Assembly: GCF_025947225.1 (NCBI RefSeq)
Contig: NZ_CP110005.1
Span: 434,001-498,000 of the forward strand
Source of the DNA: Flavobacterium sp. N2270
GTDB taxonomy: Bacteria > Bacteroidota > Bacteroidia > Flavobacteriales > Flavobacteriaceae
DNA: 64,000 nucleotides
Direction of reading: 5' to 3'
The first letter of the stretch is position 1. The number at the start of each line of letters is the position of its first letter. Below the pieces are notes generated by a model that saw only the letters and a list, made by a program, of their open reading frames with translations, was not told the origin of the DNA and ran no database searches. A program made the translations under genes and the position numbers. This document shows, piece after piece, positions 9,965-27,115 of this stretch.

Positions 9965-10021
9965 TTTAACAAAAATTACATTTTTAATACACCTAAAAAC
10001 TACTTGTTCAACGTATCTTTA
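9965..10021 (+). promoter_or_regulatory. Promoter region of small-RNA copy C, with conserved upstream box
   Basis: It contains TTTAACAAAAATTACAT at 9965-9981 and a -7 box TATCTTTA at 10014-10021. The distance from the first T of TTAACA (9966) to the GG at 10026 is 60 bp, identical to the two other copies in the window (26921-26981 and 27055-27115, minus strand). Conservation of both sequence and spacing points to an activator or UP-type site. Confidence 0.65.
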
Positions 10022-10025
10022 CCTA

Positions 10026-10092
10026 GGTTAATAGCAGTAATTTTTTCTAATCGAAAAAATATAAAACCGGAACTTATGTTTCGGTTTTTTTT
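10026..10092 (+). ncRNA. Candidate small RNA, copy C of a three-member family
   Basis: Predicted transcript of about 67 nt from GG at 10026 to the T-tract of the hairpin at 10064-10087. The 5' end reads GGTTAATAGCAG then TAATTTTTTCTAATC, nearly identical to copies A and B on the other strand at 26920 and 27054. The terminator stem is unrelated in sequence to theirs. A conserved 5' single-stranded seed with a divergent terminator is typical of trans-acting sRNAs. No ORF is conserved across the copies. It lies between the secreted-protein gene and mgtE, whose 3' end it meets head-on. Confidence 0.7.
10064..10092. terminator. Bidirectional rho-independent terminator
   Basis: Ten-bp stem AAACCGGAAC / GTTTCGGTTT (10064-10073 with 10078-10087, one G-T pair), TTAT loop, then eight T. 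A-tracts on the other side also allow termination of the mgtE transcript on the minus strand. Confidence 0.8.
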
Positions 10093-10094
10093 AT

Positions 10095-11447
10095 TTAAAA
10101 TCCTAAAATAGCCTTAGCTATTGAAAAATAAATTAGAATTCCGCAAATATCGTTACTTGTAGTTATAAATGGCCCAGTTGCAAGTGCAGGGTCAATACCA
10201 TATTTATTTAAAGTTATTGGAATGAAAGTACCTAGAAAAGATGCAGTAACAATTACCGACAATAATGCAGCAGTAACGGTTAATGCTAATGGAAGAGCTT
10301 CGTCTAACAAAAAGTAACATCCTAAAAACAAAATGAAACTTAATATTAATCCGTTAAACAAACTTAATGAAAACTCTTTTAATAATCGAGCCCATAAAGA
10401 ACCCGAAAGTGTATCATTAGCTAAACCTTGAACTATAATTGCAGAAGATTGCACTCCAACATTACCTGCCATTGCAGCAATGAGTGGCGTAAAAAAGAAT
10501 AGTTCTGCATGTTCTTTCATTGCTCCATCAAATAGTCCAAGTAATTTTACAGATATAAAGCCTCCAAAAAGAGCCAAAACTAACCATGGCAAACGCGCTT
10601 TTGTTAATTCGAGAATACTATCATCTGCTTCAACATCATGCGAAATACCAGCGGCTAATTGATAATCTTTGTCTGCTTCTTCTTTAATTACATCAACAAT
10701 ATCATCAATTGTAATTCTACCTACTAATCTTCCTAATTCATCTACAACAGGAATGGCTTCCAAATCATATTTTTGCATAATTCGGGCAACTTCAACATTT
10801 TCTGTATCAACTCTTACATAATCTACTTTAGGAATATAAACATCACTAATCATGGTTTTTGTAGAAGTCGTCAATAAATCTTTAAGAGAAAGTCTTCCTT
10901 TTAGTCTATTTTCATCATCAACCACATAAATAGAATGAACTCTGGTTACATTTTCAGCTTGAGCGCGCATTTCTTTAACACAAGTAAGCACGTTCCAGTT
11001 TTCATTAACTCTAACTAACTCTTTTGCCATTAAACCACCCGCAGAATCTTCATCATAACGAAGAAGATCAACAATATCTTTGGCATGTTCTACATCTTCT
11101 AATTCAGAAATTACTTGTTGCTTTCTTTCTTGAGGAAGTTCGGCAATAATATCGGCAGCATCATCAGTACTTAATTCGTCAAGCTCTTCAGCAATTTCTT
11201 TTGGTGAAAGTTTTTTAAGAATTTTTTCACGAACATCTTCGTCTAATTCTAATAGAATTTCAGCAGTTATTTCAGAATCTAACGCATTGAAAATATAACT
11301 CGCTTCATGACTATCAAGCTCGTCCATAATTTCGGCAATATCAGCAAAGTGAACGTCAAGAAGTAAACTTTGTAGTTCTTGTTCTTTATTTTCACTAATA
11401 AGTTGCTCTATTTGAGCAATAAATTCTTTGCTGATTTTAAACTCCAT
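10095..11447 (-). CDS. mgtE: Magnesium transporter MgtE
   Basis: A 450-residue inner-membrane Mg2+ channel/transporter of normal length. Order: N-terminal MgtE superhelical domain (about 20-125, with repeats such as [17 protein letters not shown]), two CBS domains (about 130-255, ending [19 protein letters not shown]), a connecting helix, and five membrane helices (about 285-450) with the pore signature [16 protein letters not shown]. The cytosolic domains sense Mg2+ and gate the pore in characterised homologues. Its start overlaps the end of rsmA by 11 bp, so the two are translationally coupled. Confidence 0.95.
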
Positions 11448-12213
11448 CGGCTTCTATTTTTTGTGTTAATTCAATAAAACTTTCAACAGAAAGTTGCTCT
11501 GGTCGAAGATCAAAGATAATGTCTTCTTTTAAACTATCCGAAAAATCAAAGGTTTTTAAACTATTTCTTAATGTTTTTCGTCTTTGTTGAAAAGCTGTTT
11601 TTACCACCCTAAAAAATAATTTTTCGTCGCAAGACAAACTAAAATCTTCTTTTCTTTTTAATCGTAAAACTCCCGAATCTACTTTTGGTGGTGGATCAAA
11701 AACATCTGGTGGAACCGTAAATAAATATTCTGCTTCGTAAAACGCTTGTGTCAAAACAGATAAAATTCCGTAGACTTTACTTCCTTTTTTCTCACAAATA
11801 CGTTGCGCTACTTCTTTTTGAAACATTCCAGCAAATTCTGGCACTTGATTTCTCATTTCCAAAGCTTTAAAAACAATTTGTGTAGAAATATTATATGGGA
11901 AGTTTCCAATGATTGCAAATGATTCTCCATTAAAAACTTCATTTAAATTGTACTTTAAAAAATCTTTAGATATAATTTTACCCTTTAATTTTGGATAATT
12001 TTGTTCTAAATATTCAACAGATTCGGTATCAATTTCAATTACAAAAGTATCTGTAGGTTTTTCTAATAAATATTTAGTAAGCACACCCATTCCAGGTCCA
12101 ATTTCTAAAACTTTAGAATAATTTTCAAGTGAAATTGAATCGGCAATTTTTTCGGCAATACTTTCATCTGTTAGAAAATGTTGGCCTAAGTGTTTTTTTG
12201 CTTTTACTGACAT
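11437..12213 (-). CDS. rsmA: 16S rRNA (adenine1518/1519-N6)-dimethyltransferase
   Basis: A 258-residue KsgA/RsmA enzyme that dimethylates two adjacent adenines in the 3' hairpin of 16S rRNA during 30S assembly. Signature residues: [11 protein letters not shown] at the N-terminus, SAM motif [15 protein letters not shown], the acidic VIEIDTES, catalytic NFPYNIS (NLPY-type motif IV), and the C-terminal domain with [12 protein letters not shown]. It is the middle gene of a tight run: a DUF4286 gene ends 18 bp upstream and mgtE begins within its last codons. Confidence 0.96.
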
Positions 12214-12230
12214 TGTTTGTCTTTTTGAAA

Positions 12231-12557
12231 TTAATTATCTGAATGAAAATGTTCGCTAAAAACTTCCAATTCTGTTCTAAAAGCTAACATTTTATCTCCA
12301 AACAAAGATAGTCCTTCTTCTCTAAGTCTTGGTGCATGATTTTTATAATAATTTTCAAGGTTTTCTTTAGAATCTGTAAAATATTGAACCGCGTAAGTTG
12401 TACCGCCCATTTCTTCTTCAACTAAAACCTTTACCAGCTTTGCTTTGGTAAACAAACCTGTTTTTAAAACATCGTTAATATGTTTTTGTTGCATCCACAA
12501 CAACCATTTTTCGTGAATACTTTCGTCGATATTTATTGTAACGTTATATATTATCAT
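12231..12557 (-). CDS. DUF4286 family protein
   Basis: A 108-residue soluble protein, full length for DUF4286: it begins [19 protein letters not shown] and contains [10 protein letters not shown] and the terminal [12 protein letters not shown]. The predicted fold is a small ferredoxin-like alpha-beta domain; no biochemical role is known. In flavobacteria it is often found near rsmA and a TPR protein, as here, which points to a conserved but uncharacterised neighbourhood. Confidence 0.85.
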
Positions 12558-12582
12558 TTTTATTTTTTGTTATCAAATTAAT

Positions 12583-14358
12583 TTATAAAGCATTATCTCC
12601 TCTAATTTTTCGGTATTCTAATTGCGCTTCGGTATAAAAAACGCTATCAGGATGTTCAAAAATTACTTTTTCGTATAAAGGTTTTGCTTGTAATGTATCG
12701 TTTAACTTTTTGTTGAAAATTTCTGCAGTATAAAACAAAGCTTCATCTATGAAAACACTTTCTTTGTGATTCTCAATTATGTTTTTATAATACTTTAATG
12801 CTTGTAAATAGTCTTTCTTCTCTTCAAAAATTTGTCCGATTTTCAAAAGCGTTTCATCTTCAATAGAATCGCCTTTAAATTTTTCTAATATATTTAAAAA
12901 TCCGCTTAAGGCTTCCTCCTTTTTCTTTTGATACAAAAGCAAATCGGCTTTAGCATAAGCGGTTAAAGCCGTTCTTGTACTGTCTTTGGAATTATCAGAA
13001 ATAAGCAAAAACAAAGCAATAGCATCATTTGCAATTAATAAACTTGATGATTGTTTCAAGACTTTAACTTGTTGAAATGTCCAATCAAAATCATTTTTAT
13101 AGTAATTTGCTTTAGCCATTTTCATACTTGCTTCGTGCGCTAACTCATCATTTTTTAAGTTTTCTTCCACTTGAGCATAATACAGTATCGCTTGATTGAA
13201 TTTCTCGTCAAAAACCATAATATCCGCCAATTCCATTTTAACAAGAGCTTCTTCTCTAGCATTTAAAGGCAACTTTAATGCTGTGTTTAATAGTTGAATT
13301 GCTTCTTTAGGTTGCTTTCTATAAAAAGCATCAAAGTGAGCTGTTAAAACTTGCAAGTTTAAGCTATAAGGACTTATGCCATATTTTTTTAGTAATAAAT
13401 TTAACTCGTTTTGAATAACTTCATATTCAGCAGGATTTACAGATTCAATTTTCATTTGCATTAAAAAATGATGTGCTTGCATTTGCAAACCAACATTTTG
13501 AGTATTTTCTAAAACAAATTGCAAAATAATAGCTGCATCTTCATTTTGCTTATCACCAATTGCCAATTGAGCAAGCGCAACAATATTGTAAAAACTTTCT
13601 GGATTACGTTTATATATTGCTCTTTCTTGAATAAATGCTTTTCCAAATTCTTTTTGCTGAACATACAACCAACTCAAAAACTGATTCCAATAATTATCTG
13701 GAGTTTTTTGTGTTTTTGTGAGTAATGCTTTTTTTAAATAAGCTGTAAAGGTTCCGTTTGCATCTTCTGATATAAAACGAGATAAATAATTTTGAACTAA
13801 ACTTGTATTGTCTGGTTTCTCAAATGAAAATTGCAATAACTTATCAGTCATTCCTTCTACATTTCCTTTTTGTCCTTCAATTAAGGCAATTTGGTAATCA
13901 AAATTTAAGTTTGGATTACCTTTTTGAGCAATTTCATATACTTTTAAAGCCCAGTCTAATAGCACTTTTTTTTCAAAAGAGTTTCCAATTTGATAAGCGT
14001 AGTTAGGCTCTTTTTTAACTTCGTCTAAAGCTAGATTGTATTGTTTTTCTGCTTTTGAAGTGTTTTTTTGCAATTGAAAATTATAGCCTAGCTCGACATA
14101 TAAAACCGGCTGACGGTATTTTTTATTTCTATCACCTATTGCATTTTCAGCTTTTTCATACTGTTGCAACTGTTGGTAACACGTTATTAATCGCTCAAAA
14201 TAATAGGTATTTGCAGGTTGCTTACTAGAAATACTTTCAAGCATTGTAACCGCCTTTTCAAATTCACCTTTCTCAAAATAATCTAATGCCAATTGTTCGT
14301 TTTGAGCAAAAGCAAAAAACGAAAACAAAAAAAATATTTTAATGAGATTAAATTTCAT
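12583..14358 (-). CDS. Exported tetratricopeptide-repeat protein
   Basis: A 591-residue protein from MKFNLIKIFFLFSFFAFAQ, a good signal peptide; an ATG five codons upstream (14373) would bury it, so 14358 is taken. The rest is TPR-like helical repeats over nearly the whole length (for example LDYFEKGEFEKAVTMLE, AEKQYNLALDEVKKEP, ALKYYKNIIENHKES, AKPLYEKVIFEHPDS). Such proteins are periplasmic or outer-membrane-associated scaffolds; the partner is unknown. It is first in a run leading to DUF4286, rsmA and mgtE (25-bp gap). Confidence 0.88.
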   Translation of the reverse strand: MKFNLIKIFFLFSFFAFAQNEQLALDYFEKGEFEKAVTMLESISSKQPANTYYFERLITCYQQLQQYEKAENAIGDRNKKYRQPVLYVELGYNFQLQKNTSKAEKQYNLALDEVKKEPNYAYQIGNSFEKKVLLDWALKVYEIAQKGNPNLNFDYQIALIEGQKGNVEGMTDKLLQFSFEKPDNTSLVQNYLSRFISEDANGTFTAYLKKALLTKTQKTPDNYWNQFLSWLYVQQKEFGKAFIQERAIYKRNPESFYNIVALAQLAIGDKQNEDAAIILQFVLENTQNVGLQMQAHHFLMQMKIESVNPAEYEVIQNELNLLLKKYGISPYSLNLQVLTAHFDAFYRKQPKEAIQLLNTALKLPLNAREEALVKMELADIMVFDEKFNQAILYYAQVEENLKNDELAHEASMKMAKANYYKNDFDWTFQQVKVLKQSSSLLIANDAIALFLLISDNSKDSTRTALTAYAKADLLLYQKKKEEALSGFLNILEKFKGDSIEDETLLKIGQIFEEKKDYLQALKYYKNIIENHKESVFIDEALFYTAEIFNKKLNDTLQAKPLYEKVIFEHPDSVFYTEAQLEYRKIRGDNAL

Positions 14359-14434
14359 ACTTATTAAAAACAAACAATGTACTAAAGTAACACATTTTGT
14401 GTCAATTTAGTACATTATTGCTATTTGCGCGTGA

Positions 14435-15706
14435 TTAATTTATGATATCAAAACCAGTGTACTTACGTAATACCTCTGGAATAACAATTCCATCTGGTGT
14501 TTGATAATTTTCTAAAATTCCAGCTAAAACTCTTGGTAAAGCCAATGAACTACCGTTTAATGTATGAGCCAATTGGTTTTTACCATCTTTATCTTTGAAA
14601 CGCAATTTCAATCTATTAGCTTGAAAAGTTTCAAAATTTGAAACCGAACTGATTTCCAACCAACGATCTTGCGCTGTAGAATATACTTCAAAATCATACG
14701 TTAATGAAGACGTAAAGCCCATATCTCCTCCACATAAACGCAAAATTCTAAATGGCAACTTTAATTCCTGTAAAATTTTCTTTACATGCCCTACCATTCC
14801 ATCTAGAGCATCATAAGACTTATCTGGATGTTCAACACGTACAATTTCAACTTTATCAAATTGGTGTAAACGATTTAAACCACGAACATGTGCTCCCCAA
14901 GAACCCGCTTCTCTTCTAAAACATGGTGTATAACCTGTATAAATTATTGGTAATTCATTTTCTTGCAAAAGAACATCTCTAAAAATATTCGTTACCGGAA
15001 CTTCGGCTGTTGGGATTAAATACAAATCATCTTTAGCATCATGATACATTTGCCCTTCTTTATCTGGTAATTGTCCTGTTCCATATGCTGAAGCTTCATT
15101 AACTAAATGAGGCACTTGCATTTCTGTATAACCAGCATCTGTGTTTTTATCCAAAAAATAAGAAATTAAAGCACGTTGCAATTTAGCACCCTTCCCTTTA
15201 TAAACTGGAAAACCAGGCGCAGTAATTTTTGTCCCTAATTCAAAATCAATGATGTCGTATTTTTTAATTAAATCCCAATGAGGTAGAGCTCCTTCGTGCA
15301 ACTTAGGCACTTCACCTTCTTCATAAACATTTAAATTTTCTTCTGGAGTTTTTCCTTCAGGAACAATATCAGCTGGCAAGTTTGGTAATTTATACAACTC
15401 CTCTTGTAATTCGGCTGCAACTTCATTTAAAGCATCTGTCAACTCTCTTCCTTTCTCCCTAAATTGAGTTGATTTTTCTTTTAAAATTTCAGCTTTAGCT
15501 TTCTCTCCACTTTTCATTAAAGCACCAATATCTTTGGACAGCTTATTAGATTCTGCAAGTGTATTATCTAATTCTGCTTGAAGCGAACGTCTTTTTTCAT
15601 CTAAGTTTATTACTAACTCAACTTGTCCTTGAGCGTTCATGTTTCTTTTTTCTAAACGTTTAATTACATCTTCCTTGTTTTCTCTAATGTAAGCTATTTG
15701 TAACAT
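14435..15706 (-). CDS. serS: Seryl-tRNA synthetase
   Basis: A 423-residue class II synthetase that charges tRNA-Ser. An N-terminal antiparallel coiled-coil arm (about 25-105) precedes the catalytic domain: motif 2 FRREAGSWGAHVRGLNRLHQ and motif 3 NGSSLALPRVLAGILENYQ. The start at 15706 (MLQIAYIRENKE) matches the family; an upstream ATG at 15727 adds seven poorly conserved residues. Length and motifs are normal. It is divergent from the M1 peptidase gene. Confidence 0.96.
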   Translation of the reverse strand: MLQIAYIRENKEDVIKRLEKRNMNAQGQVELVINLDEKRRSLQAELDNTLAESNKLSKDIGALMKSGEKAKAEILKEKSTQFREKGRELTDALNEVAAELQEELYKLPNLPADIVPEGKTPEENLNVYEEGEVPKLHEGALPHWDLIKKYDIIDFELGTKITAPGFPVYKGKGAKLQRALISYFLDKNTDAGYTEMQVPHLVNEASAYGTGQLPDKEGQMYHDAKDDLYLIPTAEVPVTNIFRDVLLQENELPIIYTGYTPCFRREAGSWGAHVRGLNRLHQFDKVEIVRVEHPDKSYDALDGMVGHVKKILQELKLPFRILRLCGGDMGFTSSLTYDFEVYSTAQDRWLEISSVSNFETFQANRLKLRFKDKDGKNQLAHTLNGSSLALPRVLAGILENYQTPDGIVIPEVLRKYTGFDIIN

Positions 15707-15825
15707 GATATAAAATTTAAGGAACAAATTTAAACAATTTGTATAATATTACAGCCAACGATTAGAAAAACTAAAATTTAAAAATAAATTTATTTTTATT
15801 ACATTAGCTAAAATTTATTTACCCA

Positions 15826-17757
15826 ATGAAAAACCTACTCTTAAACCTATTGTTAATCAGTACTTTATTTAGTTATTCACAAACTGAAAATGAAGATTTC
15901 AATAGAATGATTGAAGCCGAAATGAAATCTGCTTCTTCAACAATTAACTTTAGAGCAAATACAAATACTCAAGATTATGATGTGACTTATCATGAATTAA
16001 GATTCACTGTTGACCCTGCTGTATATTTTATAAATGGAGAAGTTACAACTACATTTACTGCCTTAACAGATATGAATACTGTTACATTTGACATGGCTAA
16101 TGAACTAACAGCTAGTAGTGTTACCATAAACTCAATCCCAGTAAGTTACTCAAGAAGCGTTAATAATGAAATTATTATTACTCTTCCAGCTACGTTAACA
16201 ACCAATAGTAGTCAAACAGTTAAAATAATATATTCTGGAGCTCCTCCTCAAAGCGGGTTTAGCGCTTTTGCTGCAAACGAATACCACAATGGAGTACCCG
16301 TTATGTGGACACTTTCGGAACCTTATGGAGCAAGAGATTGGTGGCCTTGCAAACAAGACTTGAGTGATAAAATAGCAAGTATTGATGTTTATATTACTTC
16401 TCCATCAGCATATGTTAGTGTTTCAAATGGAATAGAACAATCCATAGTAGATAATGGAGACGGAACAAAAACAACTCATTTTCATCATGGATATCCAATT
16501 CCTGCCTACTTGATAGCAATTGCATCTACAAACTATCAAATATATAATCAACAAGCTGGCCTTGGAACCGTAGCAAGCCCATTTTTTCCAATTGTAAATT
16601 ATATTTACCCAGAAACCGCAACATCAACTCAAGCAAGTTTAGCGGTAACACCAACCATCATGAATCTATTTGAAAGTTTAATTGGAGATTATCCTTTTAG
16701 AAATGAAAAATATGGCCATGCTCAGTTTGGCTGGGGAGGGGGAATGGAACATACAACGGTTTCTTTTATGGGAGGCTGGTCTAGAAGTTTAATTGCTCAT
16801 GAACTAGCACATCAATGGTTTGGAGACCAAATTACATGTGGCACATGGAAAGACATTTGGCTAAATGAAGGAATTACAGAGTACATGGCGGGTATAGTTG
16901 TAGAAAACCTAGACGGAGCAACTTCTTTTGTAAGTTGGAAAAACAGTAAAATAAACAGTATTACATCTCAAACTGGTGGAAATCTATATCTAACAGATGC
17001 CCAAATACAAAACATTAACACTATTTTTAGCAGTAGAATAACATATAACAAAGGGTCTATGGTAACGAACATGATTCGATATAAAATGGGAGATACTAAT
17101 TTTTTCCAAGCTTTAAAAAATTACTTAGCTGATCCAGCTTTAGCCTATCAATATGCTGTAACACCTCAATTTCAGAACCATTTAGAAATGGCTTCTGGAT
17201 TAGATTTTACAGAATTTTTTAATGATTGGGTATATAATGAAGGTTACCCAACTTATACAATTACAGGCCAAAATTGGGGTGCGGGCCAAGCACGAATTTT
17301 AGTAAATCAAACACAATCTCATGCATCTGTAAGTTATTTTGAAATGCCAATTACAGTTCGTTTATCTGGCTCTGGCGGTCAAACACAAGATTTCATATTA
17401 GACAACACAACAAATAATCAAGAATTTATCGTTAACGTTCCTTTTCAAGTTACAAACGTAGAATTTGACCCAAATAAGGATATTATTTCAAGAAACAATA
17501 CAGCAACTTTATCAAACGAACAATTTGAATTAGAAAACTCAGTAGTACTTTATCCTAACCCAAGCGATAACGAATTACACATAAAACTACCAAACTCTAT
17601 TGAATTAAAAGAAGTAGAATTCTACAACGCAATAGGCCAATTAACGCTCACAAAGAACACAACTGACTTTTCTGTTAGCCAACTAAATAACGGAGTACAT
17701 TTCGTAAAAATCACAACCAACCAAGGGGTAATTCATAAAAATTTTATAAAAAAATAG
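15826..17757 (+). CDS. M1 family zinc aminopeptidase with T9SS sorting domain
   Basis: A 643-residue secreted metallopeptidase. Signal peptide to about residue 19 (LLNLLLISTLFSYSQ); N-terminal beta-sandwich (about 50-220); catalytic domain with GGGMEHTTVSFMG (GAMEN-type exopeptidase motif), the zinc site HELAHQWFGD and the third ligand in NEGITEYM. The usual large C-terminal helical domain of M1 enzymes is absent; instead the protein ends with a type A T9SS sorting domain (VVLYPNPSDNELHI... to HKNFIKK). It is therefore predicted to be exported by the type IX system and anchored or released at the cell surface for peptide degradation. Confidence 0.93.
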   Translation: MKNLLLNLLLISTLFSYSQTENEDFNRMIEAEMKSASSTINFRANTNTQDYDVTYHELRFTVDPAVYFINGEVTTTFTALTDMNTVTFDMANELTASSVTINSIPVSYSRSVNNEIIITLPATLTTNSSQTVKIIYSGAPPQSGFSAFAANEYHNGVPVMWTLSEPYGARDWWPCKQDLSDKIASIDVYITSPSAYVSVSNGIEQSIVDNGDGTKTTHFHHGYPIPAYLIAIASTNYQIYNQQAGLGTVASPFFPIVNYIYPETATSTQASLAVTPTIMNLFESLIGDYPFRNEKYGHAQFGWGGGMEHTTVSFMGGWSRSLIAHELAHQWFGDQITCGTWKDIWLNEGITEYMAGIVVENLDGATSFVSWKNSKINSITSQTGGNLYLTDAQIQNINTIFSSRITYNKGSMVTNMIRYKMGDTNFFQALKNYLADPALAYQYAVTPQFQNHLEMASGLDFTEFFNDWVYNEGYPTYTITGQNWGAGQARILVNQTQSHASVSYFEMPITVRLSGSGGQTQDFILDNTTNNQEFIVNVPFQVTNVEFDPNKDIISRNNTATLSNEQFELENSVVLYPNPSDNELHIKLPNSIELKEVEFYNAIGQLTLTKNTTDFSVSQLNNGVHFVKITTNQGVIHKNFIKK

Positions 17758-17778
17758 TTCCTATATAAAATAATAGTA

Positions 17779-17805
17779 AAAAGTAAGGTGAAAACCTTAC
17801 TTTTG
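17779..17805 (+). terminator. Terminator overlapping the rseP promoter
   Basis: Eleven-bp stem AAAAGTAAGGT / ACCTTACTTTT (17779-17789, 17794-17804) with a GAAA loop. The 3' arm also contains TACTTTTG (17798-17805), a perfect -7 box 27 bp before the rseP ATG. One sequence therefore seems to end the peptidase message and start the rseP message. Confidence 0.65.
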
Positions 17806-17832
17806 CTTTTTAAATAAAAGCAGACATATAAA

Positions 17833-19158: not shown

Positions 19159-19176
19159 TATTTTTTTACTTTTTGT

Positions 19177-19206
19177 TTGTAAAAATAAATTATCAGCTTA
19201 TATTTG
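19177..19206 (+). promoter_or_regulatory. Promoter of the tRNA-Asn genes
   Basis: A -33 TTG (19177-19179), a 19-bp spacer and a -7 box TATATTTG (19199-19206), a full match to the Bacteroidota promoter pattern, 24 bp before the first tRNA-Asn. Confidence 0.75.
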
Positions 19207-19230
19207 CACCGCATTAAAGGTAACACACCT

Positions 19231-19304
19231 TCCTTCTTAGCTCAGTTGGTTAGAGCATCTGACTGTTAATCAGAGGGTCCTTGGTTCGAGCCCAAGAGAG
19301 GGAG
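19231..19304 (+). tRNA. tRNA-Asn (GTT), first copy
   Basis: A 74-nt cloverleaf: acceptor TCCTTCT / AGAGGGA, D arm GCTC...GAGC, anticodon arm TCTGA-CTGTTAA-TCAGA with anticodon GTT at 19265-19267, T arm CTTGG-TTCGAGC-CCAAG, discriminator G. The 3' CCA is not encoded. Confidence 0.97.
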
Positions 19305-19308
19305 CTAA

Positions 19309-19335
19309 AAAAAGCCGCTTTTCAAGTGGCTTTTT
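19309..19335 (+). terminator. Terminator after the first tRNA-Asn
   Basis: Twelve-bp stem AAAAAGCCGCTT / AAGTGGCTTTTT (one G-T pair) with a TTC loop, its T-rich arm serving as the T-tract. Confidence 0.8.
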
Positions 19336-19363
19336 ATATCTCAAAATGCAAAATATTGGTTAT

Positions 19364-19437
19364 TCCTTCTTAGCTCAGTTGGTTAGAGCATCTGACTGTT
19401 AATCAGAGGGTCCTTGGTTCGAGCCCAAGAGAGGGAG
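19364..19437 (+). tRNA. tRNA-Asn (GTT), second identical copy
   Basis: Identical over all 74 nt to the copy at 19231-19304, anticodon GTT at 19398-19400. No separate good promoter is seen in the 28 bp after the first terminator, so it may depend on read-through. Confidence 0.97.
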
Positions 19438-19446
19438 CTAATACAC

Positions 19447-19480
19447 AAAAAGACTTTACAGCAATGTAAGGTCTTTTTTT
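19447..19480 (+). terminator. Terminator after the second tRNA-Asn
   Basis: Stem AAAAAGACTTTACA / TGTAAGGTCTTTTT (one G-T pair) with loop GCAA, followed by further T. Confidence 0.85.
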
Positions 19481-19518
19481 ATTTAACTCATTTTATTACA
19501 TTTATGAAAAATCAATTT

Positions 19519-20022
19519 ATGAAAAAAGTAATTCTATTATTTATTACAATATTATCATTCAAAAGCTTTTCTCAAAAAAAAGACAACAATACATATCAAA
19601 AAATTGAAATTCTATTAAACAATTGGCACAAAGCTGCTGCTGAAGCAAATTTTGATAATTACTTTAATGCAATGGCAGATGAATCAGTCTTCATAGGAAC
19701 AGATGCAACTGAAAATTGGAACAAACAAGAATTCATGATTTATGCTAAACCATATTTCGATAAAGGAAAAGCTTGGAGTTTCAAAGCAATTGAAAGAAAT
19801 ATCTATTTTTCAAAAGACAAAAAAACAGCCTGGTTTGACGAGCTATTAAACACACAAATGAAAATTTGCAGAGGAAGTGGAGTTTTAGTTCAAGTAAACG
19901 GAATTTGGAAAATAAAACATTATGTTCTTTCAATGACAATCCCAAATGAAAACACAAATGAAATTATAAAAATAAAAGCACCTATAGAAGATGCTTTTAT
20001 AAATCAATTACAAAAAAAATAA
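19519..20022 (+). CDS. Secreted NTF2-like (SnoaL-type) domain protein
   Basis: A 167-residue protein with signal peptide MKKVILLFITILSFKSFSQ followed by a compact NTF2-like alpha+beta domain: KIEILLNNWHKAAAEANFDN, then DESVFIGTDATENWNKQEF, then GSGVLVQVNGIWKIKHYVLS. In this fold a cavity may bind a small ligand or act catalytically; no activity can be assigned. The open frame extends back into the tRNA, which cannot be coding; ATGs at 19504 and 19519 are possible. The second starts directly at the canonical Lys-rich signal peptide and is preferred. Confidence 0.85.
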   Translation: MKKVILLFITILSFKSFSQKKDNNTYQKIEILLNNWHKAAAEANFDNYFNAMADESVFIGTDATENWNKQEFMIYAKPYFDKGKAWSFKAIERNIYFSKDKKTAWFDELLNTQMKICRGSGVLVQVNGIWKIKHYVLSMTIPNENTNEIIKIKAPIEDAFINQLQKK

Positions 20023-20024
20023 TT

Positions 20025-20978
20025 TTAATTGTAAATATGTTCTTTTAAATTTTTAAACATTTCTGCTGTCATTGATTTAATATCAAAATCATTTGACCAA
20101 TTCCAATCTTCTCTTGCAAGAGTATCATCAATACTTGCAGGCCAACTATCGGCAATTTTCTGACGAAAGTCTGGCGCATAACCAATTGTAAAATCAGGAT
20201 AATACTTTTTAATTTCTTCAGTAATTTGCTCAGGAGTAAAACTCATTGCTGACAAGTTATATGAAGAGCGTATTTTTATTTGCTCAGAAGAAGCTTTCAT
20301 AATTCCAATAGTTGCCTTAATTGCATCATCCATGTACATCATAGGCAAAGCCGTTTTTTCAGAAAGAAAACTAGTAAAACTTCCTTCAGTAATTGCTTTA
20401 TGATAAATATCTACGGCATAATCTGTAGTTCCCCCTCCTGGTTCTGTTGCCCAACTAATCAAACCTGGGTAACGAATACTTCTTACATCAACACCGTATT
20501 GTTTATTATAATATTCGCACCATCTCTCTCCGGCTTGTTTAGAAATCCCATAAACAGTTGAAGGCTCCATAACAGTATATTGCGGAGTATTTTCTCTAGG
20601 AGTTGTAGGCCCAAAAACCGCAATACTTGATGGCCAAAAAATCTTTTTAATTTTTCCCGCTTTAGCTAAATTTAAAACATGAAACAAAGAATTCATATTT
20701 AAATCCCAAGCAAAAGCAGGGTTTTTCTCTGCAGTTGCTGAAAGTAGTGCTGCCATTAAATAAACATCCGTAATTTCATATTGTTCAATTAAATGTTCAA
20801 TTTGATTATAATCTAACGCATTAATAACTTCAAAAATACCATTATTAACAACATCATTTTCTAATTTACGGATATCTGAAGCTACAACATTTTCAACACC
20901 ATATGTAGATCTAAGCTTTGCTGTTAATTCGGTCCCTATTTGACCACAAGCACCAATAATTAATATTTTTGTATTCAT
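20025..20978 (-). CDS. tdh: L-threonine 3-dehydrogenase, SDR type
   Basis: A 317-residue NAD-dependent extended SDR enzyme oxidising L-threonine to 2-amino-3-ketobutyrate, the first step of conversion to glycine and acetyl-CoA. Motifs: GACGQIG (NAD), PSSIAVFGP (catalytic Ser region), YGISKQAGE (Tyr-x3-Lys), RYPGLIS and the adjacent WATEPGGGTTDYAVDIYH. These match the UDP-galactose-epimerase-like threonine dehydrogenases characterised from Flavobacterium, unrelated to the zinc-dependent E. coli enzyme. It ends 2 bp from the convergent NTF2-like gene. Confidence 0.92.
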   Translation of the reverse strand: MNTKILIIGACGQIGTELTAKLRSTYGVENVVASDIRKLENDVVNNGIFEVINALDYNQIEHLIEQYEITDVYLMAALLSATAEKNPAFAWDLNMNSLFHVLNLAKAGKIKKIFWPSSIAVFGPTTPRENTPQYTVMEPSTVYGISKQAGERWCEYYNKQYGVDVRSIRYPGLISWATEPGGGTTDYAVDIYHKAITEGSFTSFLSEKTALPMMYMDDAIKATIGIMKASSEQIKIRSSYNLSAMSFTPEQITEEIKKYYPDFTIGYAPDFRQKIADSWPASIDDTLAREDWNWSNDFDIKSMTAEMFKNLKEHIYN

Positions 20979-21103
20979 TGTTTTCAGTAAATTTAAAGTA
21001 CAAATATAAGAATTTGTATGGGTTATTATTTTAAAAAAAAACTAAACAAAATTTATAATATGTTAACTTTAAAGAAATCATATTAAAATCTGGTAAACAA
21101 TTG

Positions 21104-21111
21104 TATTTTTG
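21104..21111 (+). promoter_or_regulatory. -7 promoter box (TATTTTTG)
   Basis: A perfect TAnnTTTG match, 16 bp upstream of the ATG at 21128. This places the transcription start inside the longer open frame that begins at 21101 and so supports the start at 21128. Confidence 0.6.
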
Positions 21112-21127
21112 CTTATATTTATACTTA

Positions 21128-21757
21128 ATGAAAACATATTTAATTTTATTTTTAAGTTCAGTACTTTTTATTAGTTGCGCAGACGACAGTAATCGAAATG
21201 CAAATTCTTCAAAAGTACAGCAAAAAAATACAGAAGTTTTTTTAGCAATTTCTAAAAAATGGTCATTCAATTTCCCAAATGCTAGAACAGAAATTCAAAC
21301 TACTCTCAATGAATGGAATGATTGGATTCAGTTTAAAAAAGAATTAGAGCAAAAGCCTAAAGCAACATTACTTGCTTTTCAAATGAAAATTGAAAATGTC
21401 GCTCAAAAATCTGATAGTTTGAGTTTAACTGTACCTGATAAATTTAACAATCCTCAAGTTAGAAGTAGATTAGTGACTTTAAATACAAAAATAAATTCAT
21501 TAGATACTTTTTTACATTTACAGGAAATACCACAAAAAAAAGTATTTACATTAATTGACGAAATCAACTCTGAAATAAGAGGAGTCTACATCCAAATGGA
21601 TGAAATTATAATTAAACAAGCTATTCCGAAAGAAATTGGCGAAGATGATATGATTAAAGCCTTAGACACTTCAAGAATGGCTAACTCAAAGGCTTTTGAA
21701 GAAAGTGTAACAAAGTCAAACACTCTTAAAGAAAAAGAGAAAATGCAAAAAAAATAG
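21128..21757 (+). CDS. Lipoprotein of unknown function
   Basis: A 209-residue lipoprotein: MKTYLILFLSSVLFISCADD has a lipobox-like SVLFISC with the acylated Cys followed by acidic residues. The body is helical and charged (WNDWIQFKKELEQKPK, LNTKINSLDTFLHLQE), ending in a Lys-rich coiled tail. No known domain. Its stop is 3 bp before the ATG of a T9SS cargo protein, so the two are co-transcribed; a shared role is possible but unproven. Confidence 0.8.
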   Translation: MKTYLILFLSSVLFISCADDSNRNANSSKVQQKNTEVFLAISKKWSFNFPNARTEIQTTLNEWNDWIQFKKELEQKPKATLLAFQMKIENVAQKSDSLSLTVPDKFNNPQVRSRLVTLNTKINSLDTFLHLQEIPQKKVFTLIDEINSEIRGVYIQMDEIIIKQAIPKEIGEDDMIKALDTSRMANSKAFEESVTKSNTLKEKEKMQKK

Positions 21758-21760
21758 AAT

Positions 21761-23407
21761 ATGAAAAACAATTACTTTTACAAATCAACACTAATTGTAT
21801 TATGCTTTTTTGCACAAATAGCATTTTCACAAACAACCACTTGGGATGGAGCAGCTTGGGATAACGGTACGCCAAATAGCTCAACAGATGCAATTTTTAC
21901 TGGAAATTATTCTTCTTCAGGAAATTTAACTACTAAATCAATAACGGTAAATGGGACTTCAATTGTTACATTTAATTCTTCTCACACATTAACTGTTGAA
22001 AATGACATTACAATTAATGCTACTGCAAGTTTAATTTTTGAAAATAATGCGAGCTTATTACAAGTTAATGCAGCTGCAGTTAATACTGGAAATATAACTT
22101 ACAGGAGAGATACTGCTCCAATGATTGAAAATCAATACACTTATTGGGGAACCCCTGTTTTTGGGCAAATTTTAAATGTATTCTCGCCCCTAACCAGTCC
22201 AACTAGATTTCATAGTTTTAATGCTAATTCAGCTGTAAACAATTGGGTAAATGAAACAGGAACAAATGCAATGGTCCCAGGAAAGGGATATGCTATTCAA
22301 GCACCAGATAATTACACTGTGACGCCAACTATCTATAATGGAGAATTTATTGGAACACCTAATAACGGAAACATTCCTGTTAATGTTGAAGCATTTAATC
22401 CTGTGCTATTAAATTACAATTTCATTTCAAACCCTTATCCTTCTGCTATTGATGTTGTAACTATGATGGACAATACAAATCTTGGTACTTTATATTTCTG
22501 GACACATAATACTGCCATTTCAGGAAATGTTTTTACTACAGATGATTACGCAGTAAGAACAAGAACTACAGGTACGCAAGCAATTTCGGGTGGAGCAGTT
22601 CCAGATCAATACATAGCAGCTGGTCAAGGATTTTTTGCTTCAGCTGGAACAACAACAACAATTAACTTTACAAACGCAATGCGAGTTAGTGGAAATAATA
22701 ATCAGTTTTATAGAGAAACCCAATCAACAACACTAAACTATTATATTCACTTAAATCTAACGAATTCACTTGGAGCATTTAAACAAATTGCTGTAGGATA
22801 TCAAGAAGATGCGACAAACAACTATGATTTCGGAACTGACGCGCTAGCATCAACAGCTGGAGTTATACAGTTCTATTCATTAATTCCTCCATCTACACTT
22901 GGATTTGGAATACAAGGAAGGGCATATCCTTGGACAATAACAGATCAGATTCCGTTAGGAATAAACACAACACAAGCCGGAAGTTACGATATTGCAATTG
23001 ATCATACAGATACTTTTTTTGATGACAAGGGCATTTTCCTAGAAGATACAAGTAACGGAACATTTCATAATTTAAAAACCAGTACTTTTACTTTTACAAC
23101 AACAACTGGAACATTTAATAATAGGTTTAAATTACATTACCAAGATTTATCATTATCAACTGATGATAATTTGGTTAATGATTCTTCTTTAATAGTTTTT
23201 TCTACAGATGAAGCTACTAAATTTGTTTCGAATAATTTAAATATCAAATCTATTGAAGCGTTTGACATTTCAGGAAGATTACTTTTTGAAGAAAAAAACA
23301 TTAATAGCTTAACTTTTGAAAAAAATGTTTTTCAAACTAATCAAACCATATTCATTACAGTTACACTTGAAAATTTTCAAAAAATAAGAAGAAAACTTAT
23401 TTTATAA
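21761..23407 (+). CDS. T9SS-exported surface protein
   Basis: A 548-residue secreted protein. Signal peptide to FSQ (about residue 24), then a beta-helix/fibre-like stretch rich in Thr, Asn, Ser (TWDGAAWDNGTPNSS, SITVNGTSIVTFNSS), a middle part with FISNPYPSAIDVVTMM, and a C-terminal region (LNIKSIEAFDISGRLLFEE ... IRRKLIL) resembling a T9SS sorting domain, though without the usual VYPNP motif. The family is common in flavobacteria and has no known enzymatic activity; adhesion or surface-layer roles are guesses. It ends before a strong terminator. Confidence 0.85.
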   Translation: MKNNYFYKSTLIVLCFFAQIAFSQTTTWDGAAWDNGTPNSSTDAIFTGNYSSSGNLTTKSITVNGTSIVTFNSSHTLTVENDITINATASLIFENNASLLQVNAAAVNTGNITYRRDTAPMIENQYTYWGTPVFGQILNVFSPLTSPTRFHSFNANSAVNNWVNETGTNAMVPGKGYAIQAPDNYTVTPTIYNGEFIGTPNNGNIPVNVEAFNPVLLNYNFISNPYPSAIDVVTMMDNTNLGTLYFWTHNTAISGNVFTTDDYAVRTRTTGTQAISGGAVPDQYIAAGQGFFASAGTTTTINFTNAMRVSGNNNQFYRETQSTTLNYYIHLNLTNSLGAFKQIAVGYQEDATNNYDFGTDALASTAGVIQFYSLIPPSTLGFGIQGRAYPWTITDQIPLGINTTQAGSYDIAIDHTDTFFDDKGIFLEDTSNGTFHNLKTSTFTFTTTTGTFNNRFKLHYQDLSLSTDDNLVNDSSLIVFSTDEATKFVSNNLNIKSIEAFDISGRLLFEEKNINSLTFEKNVFQTNQTIFITVTLENFQKIRRKLIL

Positions 23408-23426
23408 TTTAACGAAAACACAAAAT

Positions 23427-23466
23427 AAAACCACTATAAACCAATTGGAATTGTAGTGGTTTTTTT
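23427..23466 (+). terminator. Rho-independent terminator
   Basis: Perfect 10-bp stem AAAACCACTA / TAGTGGTTTT (23427-23436, 23454-23463), with CCAATTGG in the loop, followed by T residues. Confidence 0.85.
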
Positions 23467-23494
23467 AATTTTACAACAAATTAAATTTACAACC

Positions 23495-26400
23495 TTGAAC
23501 GTTTCAGATATTTTAAAAAAATACGAACAAAATCCTAAAATTGAGCAAATTAGTCAATTACTAATTGAACGAAAAAAAGCTTCTGTTTCTGGTTTAATAG
23601 GATCATCATTATCAATTATCATTCAATCGCTTTTTAAAAAAGCAGAAATCCCTTTTTTATTGATTTTAAATGATAAAGAAGAAGCTGCTTATTATTTAAA
23701 CGACTTAGAGCAACTTCTTAACGGTGAAGATGTTTTATTTTATCCTGGTTCTTACAGAAGACCTTATCAAATTGAAGAAACAGACAATGCAAATGTTTTA
23801 TTAAGAGCTGAAGTTTTAAACCGAATTAATTCTCGTAAAAAACCAGCTATTATTGTTTCATATCCAGAAGCTTTATTTGAAAAAGTAGTTACTCGAAAAG
23901 AATTAGATAAAAACACTTTAAAACTTGCCGTAAACGATAACTTATCAATTGATTTTATCAACGAAACACTATTTGAATACAATTTTAAACGTGTTGACTT
24001 TGTTGTTGAACCCGGCGAATTTTCTGTTCGTGGTGGAATTATTGATGTGTTTTCATTTTCAAATGACGAACCGTATAGAATTGAGTTTTTTGGCAACGAA
24101 GTAGACAGCATTAGAAGTTTTGATGTTGAAACCCAACTTTCAAAAGAAAAGCTCAAGAAAATTTCAATTATTCCGAATGTAGAAAATAAAATGCTTCAAG
24201 AAAATCGCGAAAGCTTTTTAAACTACATCAACGAAAAAACCGCTGTTTTTATTCAAAATACCGAGCAAATTGGTCAAAAATTAAACACTTTATTTGGTAA
24301 AGCAGATGAAGCTTACTCAAAATTAACTGGCGAAATAAAACAAGCCAATCCGGAAGAATTATTTGTAAACGAAAAAACGTTTTTAAAAAAAGTAATCGAC
24401 TTTCCAATTGTGGAATTAAACAACAAGTCGATTTTTAAAGTAGATAAAAGTTTTGAATTTCATATTCAACCTCAACCTTCTTTCAATAAACAATTTGATT
24501 TATTACTAGCCAATTTAAGTGAGAACCATGACAATGGTATTTCAAATTATATTTTATGTTCAAACGAAAGTCAGTCTAAACGTTTTCATGATATTTTTCA
24601 AAGCATAGACGAAGAAAACCACGAAAGCATTCGCAAACAATACAAAACATTAGTTTTTCCATTATATCAAGGATTTATAGATATAGAAAATCAAATTGCT
24701 TGTTATACAGATCATCAAATTTTTGAGCGCTATCATAAATTCACCATTAAAAACAGCTCTTCTAAAAAACAAACCATCACCTTAAAAGAGCTTACCTCTT
24801 TATCTGTTGGGGATTATGTTACGCATATTGACCACGGAATTGGAAAATTTGGAGGTTTACAAAAAATTCAGGTCGAAGGAAAAACACAAGAAGCCATTAA
24901 GTTGGCCTATGCTGATAATGACATTGTTTATGTAAGTATTCATTCGTTACATAAAATTTCAAAATACAACGGTAAAGATGGTGCACCTCCTAAAATATAC
25001 AAATTAGGAAGCAACGCTTGGAAAGCGTTAAAACAAAAAACAAAAGCACGAGTTAAGCATATAGCTTTCAATTTAATTCAATTGTATGCAAAAAGAAGGT
25101 TAGACAAAGGTTTTGCTTGCGCGCCCGATAGTTATTTGCAAAAAGAACTAGAAAGTTCGTTTATTTATGAAGATACACCAGATCAAATTACATCGACAAA
25201 TGATGTAAAAATGGATATGGAAAACGACAGGCCAATGGATCGATTGGTTTGCGGAGATGTTGGTTTTGGAAAAACAGAAATTGCCATTCGTGCAGCATTT
25301 AAAGCGGTTGACAATGGAAAGCAAGTTGCCGTTTTAGTTCCCACCACCATTCTTGCTTATCAACATTACAGAACATTTTCCGAGCGTTTAAAAGACATGC
25401 CGGTTACCATAAATTATTTGAATAGATTTAGAACAGCCAAGCAAAAAGCAGAAACTTTAAAAGCACTTGGTGAAGGAAAAGTTGACATTATCATTGGAAC
25501 ACATCAATTGGTAAACAAAAATGTACAATTTAAAGATTTAGGGTTGTTGATTGTTGATGAAGAGCAAAAATTTGGAGTAAACGTAAAAGATAAATTAAAA
25601 ACTATTGCTGCAAATGTAGATACGCTTACACTTACTGCAACTCCAATTCCAAGAACGTTACAATTTTCGCTGATGGCAGCTAGAGATTTATCGGTAATTA
25701 CTACTCCACCGCCTAATAGACATCCTATTGAAACAAATGTGGTGCGTTTTAACGAAGAAGTAATTAGAGATGCTATTTCATATGAAATTGAACGTGGCGG
25801 ACAAGTATTTTTTATTAATAATCGCATTGAAAACATCAAAGAAGTTGCTGGAATGATTCAACGATTAGTTCCCGATGCAAAAGTGGGAATTGGTCACGGA
25901 CAAATGGACGGTAAAAAACTAGAAGAATTAATGCTTGCTTTTATTGAAGGTGAATTTGATGTTTTAGTAGCAACAACGATTATTGAAAGTGGATTAGATG
26001 TTCCAAATGCGAATACTATTTTTATTAATAATGCCAATAATTTCGGATTATCTGATTTACATCAAATGCGTGGTCGTGTAGGGCGAAGCAATAAAAAAGC
26101 ATTTTGTTACTTTATTACTCCACCAGATACTGTAATGACTGAAGATGCACGAAAACGCATCAATGCATTGGAACAATTTAGCGAATTGGGAAGCGGATTT
26201 AATATTGCCATGAAAGATTTAGAAATTCGTGGTGCTGGAGATTTATTAGGCGGTGAACAAAGTGGTTTCATTAATGAAATTGGTTTTGATACCTACCAAA
26301 AAATAATGAACGAGGCAATTGACGAATTGAAAGAAAACGAATTTAAAGACCTTTACGAAGAAGAAAATAATATTGAGACTAAAGAATACGTAAAAGATAT

Positions 26401-26848
26401 TTTAATTGACACAGACTTCGAATTATTGTTTCCTGATGAATATATAAACAGTGTTACTGAACGATTAAGTTTATATAACGAGTTAGGCTTAATTAAAAAA
26501 GAGGAAGATTTATTGCTTTTCGAACAAAAATTAATTGATCGATTTGGTGCGCTTCCAAAACCTGCAATTGCATTATTAAATAGTTTACGAATAAAATGGA
26601 AAGCAACTTCTATAGGAATTGAAAAATTATTAATGAAACAAGGCAAACTTATTGGTTATTTCATAAGCGATCAACAAAGCAAATATTATCAATCTAACAA
26701 GTTCATGAAAGTAATGCAATTTGCACAACAAAATGGAAATCTTTGCAAAATTAAAGAGAAGCAAACCAAAAATGGATTACGTTTATTAATCACATTTGAC
26801 AATGTAAAAAGTATTACTAAAGCTTTAGAGCTTTTCAATAAAATATAA
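23495..26848 (+). CDS. mfd: Transcription-repair coupling factor Mfd
   Basis: An 1117-residue SF2 translocase that removes stalled RNA polymerase and recruits UvrA. Order: UvrB-like N-terminal module (about 25-330), RNA-polymerase-interacting CarD-like domain (SVGDYVTHIDHGIGKFGG, about residue 440), translocase with Walker A GDVGFGKTEIA, DEEQKF box and TATPIPRTLQFSLMA, GRVGRSNKKAFCYF, and the C-terminal TRCF domain. The longest frame starts at a GTG inside the upstream terminator (23456), which is implausible. A TTG at 23495 gives the conserved beginning M-NVSDILKKYEQNP, so this rare start is chosen. Confidence 0.95.
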   Translation: MNVSDILKKYEQNPKIEQISQLLIERKKASVSGLIGSSLSIIIQSLFKKAEIPFLLILNDKEEAAYYLNDLEQLLNGEDVLFYPGSYRRPYQIEETDNANVLLRAEVLNRINSRKKPAIIVSYPEALFEKVVTRKELDKNTLKLAVNDNLSIDFINETLFEYNFKRVDFVVEPGEFSVRGGIIDVFSFSNDEPYRIEFFGNEVDSIRSFDVETQLSKEKLKKISIIPNVENKMLQENRESFLNYINEKTAVFIQNTEQIGQKLNTLFGKADEAYSKLTGEIKQANPEELFVNEKTFLKKVIDFPIVELNNKSIFKVDKSFEFHIQPQPSFNKQFDLLLANLSENHDNGISNYILCSNESQSKRFHDIFQSIDEENHESIRKQYKTLVFPLYQGFIDIENQIACYTDHQIFERYHKFTIKNSSSKKQTITLKELTSLSVGDYVTHIDHGIGKFGGLQKIQVEGKTQEAIKLAYADNDIVYVSIHSLHKISKYNGKDGAPPKIYKLGSNAWKALKQKTKARVKHIAFNLIQLYAKRRLDKGFACAPDSYLQKELESSFIYEDTPDQITSTNDVKMDMENDRPMDRLVCGDVGFGKTEIAIRAAFKAVDNGKQVAVLVPTTILAYQHYRTFSERLKDMPVTINYLNRFRTAKQKAETLKALGEGKVDIIIGTHQLVNKNVQFKDLGLLIVDEEQKFGVNVKDKLKTIAANVDTLTLTATPIPRTLQFSLMAARDLSVITTPPPNRHPIETNVVRFNEEVIRDAISYEIERGGQVFFINNRIENIKEVAGMIQRLVPDAKVGIGHGQMDGKKLEELMLAFIEGEFDVLVATTIIESGLDVPNANTIFINNANNFGLSDLHQMRGRVGRSNKKAFCYFITPPDTVMTEDARKRINALEQFSELGSGFNIAMKDLEIRGAGDLLGGEQSGFINEIGFDTYQKIMNEAIDELKENEFKDLYEEENNIETKEYVKDILIDTDFELLFPDEYINSVTERLSLYNELGLIKKEEDLLLFEQKLIDRFGALPKPAIALLNSLRIKWKATSIGIEKLLMKQGKLIGYFISDQQSKYYQSNKFMKVMQFAQQNGNLCKIKEKQTKNGLRLLITFDNVKSITKALELFNKI

Positions 26849-26920
26849 AAAACATCCTAAGTGAAGTACTTAGGATGTTTACATTTTCTATTTGATTAGA
26901 AAAAATTACCACTATTAACC
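26846..26920 (-). ncRNA. Candidate small RNA, copy A of a three-member family
   Basis: Predicted transcript of about 75 nt from GG at 26920 down to the T-tract after the hairpin 26851-26879. The 5' end is GGTTAATAGTGG then TAATTTTTTCTAATC. The -7 box TATTTTTA lies at 26932-26925, four nt upstream, and the TTTAACAAAATATACAT box starts at 26981. It is tandem with copy B at a period of 134 bp and shares the family's 5' end, promoter and spacing with copy C at 10026. The hairpin also serves mfd on the other strand. Confidence 0.7.
26851..26879. terminator. Bidirectional terminator shared by mfd and sRNA copy A
   Basis: Perfect 12-bp stem AACATCCTAAGT / ACTTAGGATGTT with a GAAGT loop and T/A tracts on both sides, just after the mfd stop at 26848. 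Confidence 0.9.
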
Positions 26921-26981
26921 GTTATAAAAATACTTAAACAATAAATTTACTGTTTATATTTTTTATGTATATTTTGTTAAA
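26921..26981 (-). promoter_or_regulatory. Promoter and conserved upstream box of sRNA copy A
   Basis: Minus strand: TTTAACAAAATATACAT (26981-26965) and -7 box TATTTTTA (26932-26925). From TTAACA (26980) to the transcript GG (26920) is 60 bp, the same as in copies B and C. Confidence 0.6.
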
Positions 26982-27054
26982 ATAAAAAATCCGAAGTCCC
27001 CACTCCGGATTTTTGTGTAAATTTTTTGATTAGAAAAAATTACTACTATTAACC
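26981..27054 (-). ncRNA. Candidate small RNA, copy B of a three-member family
   Basis: Predicted transcript of about 74 nt from GG at 27054 to the T-tract of the hairpin at 26985-27014. The 5' end is GGTTAATAGTAG then TAATTTTTTCTAATC. The -7 box TATCTTTA (27066-27059) is four nt upstream and the TTTAACAAAAAATACAT box begins at 27115. Its promoter and 5' end match copies A and C; its terminator stem (ATCCG / CGGAT) does not. A mini-ORF beginning ATG at 27056 lies ahead of the predicted start and is absent in copy A, so the conservation is of RNA, not peptide. Confidence 0.7.
26985..27014. terminator. Terminator of sRNA copy B
   Basis: Nine-bp stem AAAAATCCG / CGGATTTTT with a 12-nt loop; T-tract on the minus strand at 26989-26984. 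Confidence 0.8.
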
Positions 27055-27115
27055 ATCGTAAAGATAAGCCAAGTAAGTAATTTGTATTTATGGAAAATAT
27101 GTATTTTTTGTTAAA
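27055..27115 (-). promoter_or_regulatory. Promoter and conserved upstream box of sRNA copy B
   Basis: Minus strand: TTTAACAAAAAATACAT (27115-27099) and -7 box TATCTTTA (27066-27059); 60 bp from TTAACA (27114) to the GG at 27054. The box abuts the 3' end of the EnvC-like gene. Confidence 0.6.

Follow-up and report, generated by a model that had tools for sequence, protein, structure and literature searches.

Three copies (A, B and C) of a gene for a predicted small RNA (sRNA) lie in the window analysed here, a stretch of 64,000 nucleotides from Flavobacterium sp. N2270 (assembly GCF_025947225.1, contig NZ_CP110005.1, positions 434,001 to 498,000 of the forward strand). Sequence comparison places them in a multicopy sRNA family that is real and specific to the lineage; it also supports the gene structure, the geometry of the promoter, the terminator and the conservation of the family. 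With regard to function, we see about an even chance that these are shared-seed sRNA genes whose 5′ segment blocks translation at the starts of genes for exported proteins.

Three predicted sRNA genes with a common 5′ segment

Reading the window sequence confirmed the three copies that a sequence-only reading had placed there (Table 1), as well as its claim that their 5′ starts are identical but for two positions. The shared 27-nt stretch, GGTTAATAGYRGTAATTTTTTCTAATC, varies at positions 10-11 only, and the predicted RNAs measure 67-75 nt. When up to three mismatches are allowed, the 27-mer has three matches in the whole genome of 2,791,361 bases, all inside the window, and the reversed control has none; its occurrence is therefore not due to chance. 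In folding, A, B and C each beat all of 200 shuffles (z = -4.64, -4.59 and -5.04). The metagenome-assembled genome (MAG) of Flavobacteriaceae bacterium isolate Bacter2 (L139), which is 99.7% identical over 2.5 kb around B and C, is probably from the same species.

Distribution of the family

Relatives emerged from profile searches across genomes of the same genus; the sequence-only reading had advised a covariance search. A first profile, made from the three copies and from sequence only, was run on 150 genomes and gave matches in 84 of them at E-values up to 0.1, mostly weak; seven of the 17 first-profile places read out (in L047 and L049-L053) were without the gene anatomy and were rejected. 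The second profile, built from 13 copies and run on 398 genomes at E-values up to 0.001, matched in 19. Full-length matches, 48 in all, were found in 11 of the 398: the window genome (G000), G084, G145, G157, G172, G193, G255, G281, G301, G338 and G411. As the filters were strict, this is a lower bound; G016, G023, G090, G213, G294, G314, G384 and G404, with partial matches only, were not counted. For the set of 48 copies compared below, 50 of 53 matches were read out (one each in L100, L085 and L086 was left out) and 2 without the seed were removed.

A gapped exact pattern, applied to a named collection of 84,980 species, identified 13 stretches in 10 genomes, all Flavobacterium or Flavobacteriaceae (NRK F7, haoranii, jejuense, profundi, J27, 9AF and four further MAGs). 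Viral contigs scanned with the same pattern gave 0 matches, and a viral origin was rejected on this ground. The 27-mer pattern with up to three mismatches found only the window genome among 60 genomes; the relatives came from the profile searches. Members of the family often stand in tandem, with 3-7 units per array, next to envC and mfd.

Promoter geometry and upstream element

The proposed TATnTTTA -7 box exactly 4 nt before the initial GG is present in all three copies, as TATCTTTA or TATTTTTA. Exactly 41 nt before the box, each copy carries TTTAACAA, which is part of an upstream element, TTTAACAAAA. In the genome, the arrangement TTTAACAA-N(36-48)-TATnTTTR-N4-RG occurs only at the three copies, with one match for the reversed control. 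The same geometry recurs throughout the family: in 48 of 48 copies TAnnTTTR ends 4 nt (37 copies) or 5 nt (11 copies) before the 5′ G or A, and in 44 TTTAACA lies 61-63 nt upstream, with one further copy having it at 29 nt and three G255 copies lacking an exact match. The box ends in G in 45 of the 48, an A-ending box being a feature of the window genome. No clear TTTG -33 element was seen upstream of A, B and C. To judge from the sequence, transcription from this promoter may depend on an activator at the upstream site, and the TTTAACA element is probably the site of a shared regulator.

In G314 and G384, the upstream element (TTTAACAAAAnnTACAGAAAATCTGTA, palindromic in its core) is followed by short units between genes that contain a GGGAAGGGG / CCCTAC hairpin; some of these units end in an inverted TACAGAAAATCTGTA (L096 1773 and 7938; L097 2052 and 2291; L098 1743 and 1914; L099 1843). 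Alone or with the -7 box, the element also stands before some genes with signal-peptide-like or hydrophobic N-termini (L100 1913; L101 1868; L103 1676; L084 2167). The sRNAs may therefore share a regulon with envelope proteins.

Terminators and RNA anatomy

Each copy has a terminator-like hairpin (Table 1). That of B is terminator-like on both strands and thus possibly shared with the convergent mfd. In the count on 24 of the 41 distinct copies, which covers the terminator helix, 92.3% of cells are paired, against at most 64.0% for slid structures; 8 of the 11 pairs changed on both sides, with 28 such cells compared with 8.9 in shuffles. The copies run into terminators of their own, as had been described, but the stems are not simply unrelated to one another: they occupy the same position throughout the family and covary.

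Single-sequence folds of the copies show an unpaired 5′ segment and, after it, about two hairpins; in most of these folds the segment is followed by an AU-rich hairpin. The start GTTAATAG with a GCAGTAA-type core is conserved across species. The 7 nt that follow GGTTAATA or AGTTAATA read GCAGTAA in 42 of the 48 copies, GTAGTAA in 3, and GCAATAA, GTGGTAA (copy B) and AAGGTGT in one each. Ten of the 48 begin with A instead of G; most of these belong to a second subtype, which has GGAAAGGGT behind its first hairpin and occurs in the same arrays as the main type. In L043 and L090-L093 this subtype reads AGTTAATAGCAGTAAATTTTCC..GGAAAGGGTAAAAATT, with the terminator loop TCTCATT.

Promoter geometry, 5′ segment, covarying terminators and tandem duplication together support the earlier idea of paralogous sRNAs that have a 5′ segment in common and would be transcribed and act in trans. 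A transposable or REP-like repeat, scattered and devoid of promoter and terminator, which the sequence-only reading had named as the refuting case, would look different, as the box is found in every one of the 48 copies and the terminators covary.

The seed complement resembles signal-peptide starts

Taken as codons, the complement of the common 5′ segment is AAA AAA TTA CTG CTA TTA ACC, which encodes KKLLLLT, a typical start of a signal peptide. That a conserved sRNA segment has such a complement is new here. Within one mismatch, the complement TTACTGCTATTAACY has 70 matches in the 11 carrier genomes, 46 of them sRNA genes; the 24 others compare with 10 for the reversed control. Of these 24, 20 were inspected: 14 lie elsewhere in coding or intergenic sequence, and 6 fall in the first codons of predicted exported proteins, namely MKLRLLLLT.. 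(G157), MRKKLLLLT.. (G338), MKNLMLLLLLT.. with CarboxypepD_reg (G172), MKTKLLLLLLLT.. of the same gene in G301 and G084, and MYNNFIICVLLLLT.. with DUF5916 (G411). It was these hits that revealed the KKLLLLT reading. By our own derivation, the pairing rule of copy A with wobble is TTR-YTG-YTR-TTR, which admits leucine codons only.

The preference of the seed was quantified in 310-365 genes per genome, taken from 400 kb samples of three carriers (G000, G338, G193) and of two genomes without a full-length match (G022, G010). Signal peptides were assigned by a home-made rule, and the duplex energy of the 24-nt seed with positions -25 to +54 was used to rank signal-peptide starts against other starts, expressed as the area under the curve (AUC; Table 2). 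It becomes clear that the seed fits the signal-peptide starts of the genus unusually well, but equally so where the sRNA is absent.

Table 2. Seed pairing at signal-peptide and other gene starts
Genome	AUC, real seed	AUC, dinucleotide-shuffled seeds	Shuffles reaching real AUC (of 80)	Signal-peptide genes with duplexes <= -13 kcal/mol (expected)	Other genes with duplexes <= -13 kcal/mol (expected)
G000	0.507	0.360	0	3 (1.4)	13 (11.7)
G338	0.580	0.452	0	8 (2.4)	12 (8.5)
G193	0.576	0.437	0	5 (2.4)	15 (12.3)
G022	0.560	0.472	4	9 (3.0)	23 (9.4)
G010	0.589	0.402	0	5 (1.1)	5 (9.2)

When each species' own seed was used, 2 of 100 shuffles reached the real value for the type I seed of G338 and 3 of 100 for G193. 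An earlier run of copy A on G000 had been reached by 2 of 160 dinucleotide and 0 of 60 mononucleotide shuffles. On the G000 genes, the seeds of other species and the 15-nt core gave AUC values of 0.434-0.482 and the reversed seed 0.467, the shuffle mean being 0.372; copies B and C reached 0.537 and 0.604, values without shuffles of their own.

Across 365 genes of the window genome, the best site is found at the start of a SelR lipoprotein gene, AAAAATTACTGCT-ATG, where 15 contiguous pairs reach the AU of the start codon. Three near-perfect sites match it in energy: one inside a coding region (-18.8 kcal/mol, copy A), one antisense to a gene (-17.8, copy B) and one 32 nt before a gene of the AstE_AspA family (-17.4, copy C).

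Gene neighbourhood

Copies B and C sit between an envC-like gene and mfd, and copy A between a 228-aa gene without assignment and mgtE. In the relatives, where genes were named by their resemblance to window proteins, an array occupies the interval between the envC-like gene and mfd in G301, G338 and G411, with two more genes before mfd in G338. G255 has copies after envC and ahead of mfd; we interpret the roughly 6.5 kb in between as an rRNA operon. The envC-like gene and mfd are separated in G084, and copies follow both. G172 has three copies after envC, up to the contig end, and G157 has two copies two genes away from a convergent mfd. The ten copies of G193 are dispersed; some of them (L084-L087) flank duplicated cassettes that encode a 532-aa protein without Pfam match and several weakly DUF6705-like proteins. 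Elsewhere in the window, at 19231-19438 (+), there is a tandem pair of tRNA-Asn genes with the same anticodon.

Table 1. Features of the sRNA loci in the window
Feature	Position	Strand	Basis or remark
Upstream element TTTAACAAAA of A	9965..9974	+	61 nt before 5′ end of A
-7 box TATCTTTA of A	10014..10021	+	box spacing and genome pattern search
sRNA copy A	10026..10092	+	seed core CAG; seed segment 10026-10052
Terminator hairpin of A	10063..10088	+	hairpin scan; family covariation
mfd (transcription-repair coupling factor)	23456..26848	+	convergent to B and C; NCBIfam TIGR00580 above cut-off; TRCF domains
sRNA copy B	26846..26920	-	seed core TGG; seed segment 26894-26920
Terminator hairpin of B	26850..26880	-	terminator-like on both strands
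-7 box TATTTTTA of B	26925..26932	-	box spacing and genome pattern search
Upstream element TTTAACAAAA of B	26972..26981	-	upstream comparison and genome pattern search
sRNA copy C	26981..27054	-	seed core TAG; seed segment 27028-27054
Terminator hairpin of C	26985..27014	-	hairpin scan
-7 box TATCTTTA of C	27059..27066	-	box spacing and genome pattern search
Upstream element TTTAACAAAA of C	27106..27115	-	directly 3′ of the stop codon of the envC-like gene
M23 peptidase gene, EnvC-like	27116..28342	-	upstream of C; Pfam M23; best NCBIfam match EnvC, below cut-off

Comparison with known sRNAs

At the gathering threshold, Rfam yielded two tRNA matches in the window and none at the sRNA copies; around A and B, matches at E-values up to 5 were weak, far below the gathering score, and none was credible. 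In searches of an open-access library, we came across neither the family nor a seed complementary to signal-peptide starts.

By analogy, the closest known design is that of the FopS family, together with GibS; we do not claim membership. As described in PMC11697453, FopS of Bacteroides thetaiotaomicron, said to be deposited in Rfam, comprises 14 paralogs of about 65 and 70 nt with an unpaired 5′ seed, which pair at susC start regions and are bound and antagonised by the RRM protein RbpB. In terms of these descriptions (PMC11697453, PMC7366714), both groups share paralogous intergenic sRNAs of some 65-70 nt (67-75 nt here, and similar in the relatives) with promoters of their own, a conserved 5′ segment that stays unpaired, an intrinsic terminator behind it, a host with an RRM protein, and a proposed action at translation start regions of mRNAs for exported proteins. 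The family studied here differs in its lineage, in its tandem arrays beside envC/mfd, in the fixed TTTAACA about 62 nt upstream, in an extra AU-rich hairpin and in having candidate targets only; it has no Rfam match around its copies and is set beside FopS by description.

In E. coli, OmrA and OmrB are, in the account of PMC4211561, tandem siblings with near-identical 5′ ends that regulate outer-membrane protein mRNAs under one envelope-sensing regulator. The present family likewise has tandem siblings sharing their 5′ ends. However, OmrA/OmrB also share their last 35 nt, and they are two copies as opposed to arrays of up to seven; the likeness that we draw is one of design, and no relation in sequence is claimed.

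The sequence-only reading had also brought up Rfp18 of Flavobacterium psychrophilum as a possible relative. This sRNA is portrayed in PMC9723704 as widely conserved in the genus, pairing via a third stem-loop and linked to the expression of exported proteases; the two have in common the genus and a tie to exported proteins, a proposed one in the present family. In contrast, the present family was found in 11 of 398 genomes under strict filters, with the pattern in 10 genomes of the named collection, and its single-sequence folds have about two hairpins. On the breadth and structure described for Rfp18 (PMC9723704), the two are probably not the same.

Proposed mechanism and alternatives

We infer the following scenario from sequence, and it extends from transcription and a regulator at the upstream element to pairing, repression and exported-protein targets. 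The copies would be genes for 67-75 nt sRNAs of one multicopy family, each with its own promoter consisting of TTTAACA about 62 nt upstream and a Bacteroidota-type -7 box. Each RNA would comprise an unpaired 5′ segment of about 15 nt, the AU-rich hairpin and an intrinsic terminator. The 5′ segment would most likely pair with translation initiation regions and thereby block translation. Since its complement reads KKLLLLT, mRNAs for exported proteins would be the favoured targets, paired over the first signal-peptide codons, and G-U wobble would tolerate synonymous leucine codons. A bolder and rather unlikely variant makes the seed a generic one, with GGU UAA UAG CAG UAA UUU UUU antisense to Lys-Lys-Leu-Leu-Leu-Leu-Thr: an array dosed by copy number and governed by one upstream switch would dampen many exported-protein starts at once.

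Several results weigh against targeting of exported-protein starts. The signal-peptide idea is post hoc, as it arose from the complement hits. The preference is equally strong in the two genomes without a family match and is therefore no demonstration of co-evolved targets, a proposal that is not supported. In absolute terms, copy A pairs no better with signal-peptide starts than with the remaining starts in the window genome (AUC 0.507), and the type II (subtype II) seed of G338 has no significant preference, with 14 of 100 shuffles reaching it. Near-perfect complements (up to one mismatch) amount to 13 non-sRNA sites in the whole window genome against 29 for the reversed control, which rules out a general enrichment of such targets. 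The wobble pattern has 82 matches there, three of which are the sRNA genes, compared with 61 for the control; of 27 loci inspected, only 3 extend across the start of a gene for a lipoprotein or secreted protein. No target turned out to be conserved: orthologs have not kept the SelR site, those of G281 and G157 pairing at other positions (-16.0 and -14.7) and non-carriers pairing as well (up to -15.4), so that SelR was dismissed as a conserved target.

The equal preference in family-free genomes and the lack of enrichment would be expected if these were trans-acting sRNAs with few specific, species-dependent targets, KKLLLLT following incidentally from the AT-richness of the seed without underlying the targeting. 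The strong single sites, at the SelR start, upstream of the AstE_AspA gene and in the coding region matched by copy A, fit such specific targets. This explanation is possible, though we doubt it: dinucleotide-matched shuffled seeds lack the preference, the SelR site is not conserved, and in our own antisense reading three of the four rare core changes (CAG to TAG, CAG to CAA, and GG to AG at the start) are synonymous, while TGG can wobble.

It is improbable that the 27-nt segment is a DNA or 3′-untranslated-region element of the preceding genes, or the unit of a mobile repeat, instead of an independent gene. The upstream element does often begin shortly after a stop codon, at 14 nt for A, 1 nt for C and 2-18 nt in L044, L045, L048, L084, L086, L089-L093 and L095; it also recurs in the other short units of G314 and G384, and the copies of G193 are dispersed. 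Yet other units, namely the second ones of L084-L086 and those in L043, L087, L088 and L094, are at least 44 nt away from a stop codon. In addition, within a tandem array each unit has retained a promoter and a terminator of its own, at constant spacing, the terminators covary, the conserved part is the 5′ RNA segment, and the viral contigs are free of the pattern. We give equally little credence to an RNA that binds or titrates a protein, with the 5′ segment as a binding site, for instance for an RRM protein, and no mRNA pairing. Multicopy arrays would suit titration, the window genome encodes one RRM_1 protein (114 aa), and RbpB is described as binding and antagonising FopS (PMC11697453). 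Against this stand the segment complements on gene starts (6 of 20 inspected), where the seed beats shuffles, and the conserved 5′ segment of FopS, which acts as the pairing seed in the same description (PMC11697453).

Implications

To our knowledge, few flavobacterial regulatory RNAs have been characterised so far. The family is compact and testable, with precise boundaries, its own promoter signature, natural variation in copy number and a FopS-like design outside Bacteroides. If the targeting of exported-protein starts is true, the sRNA would identify its targets as a class, through the export signal of the proteins, rather than gene by gene.

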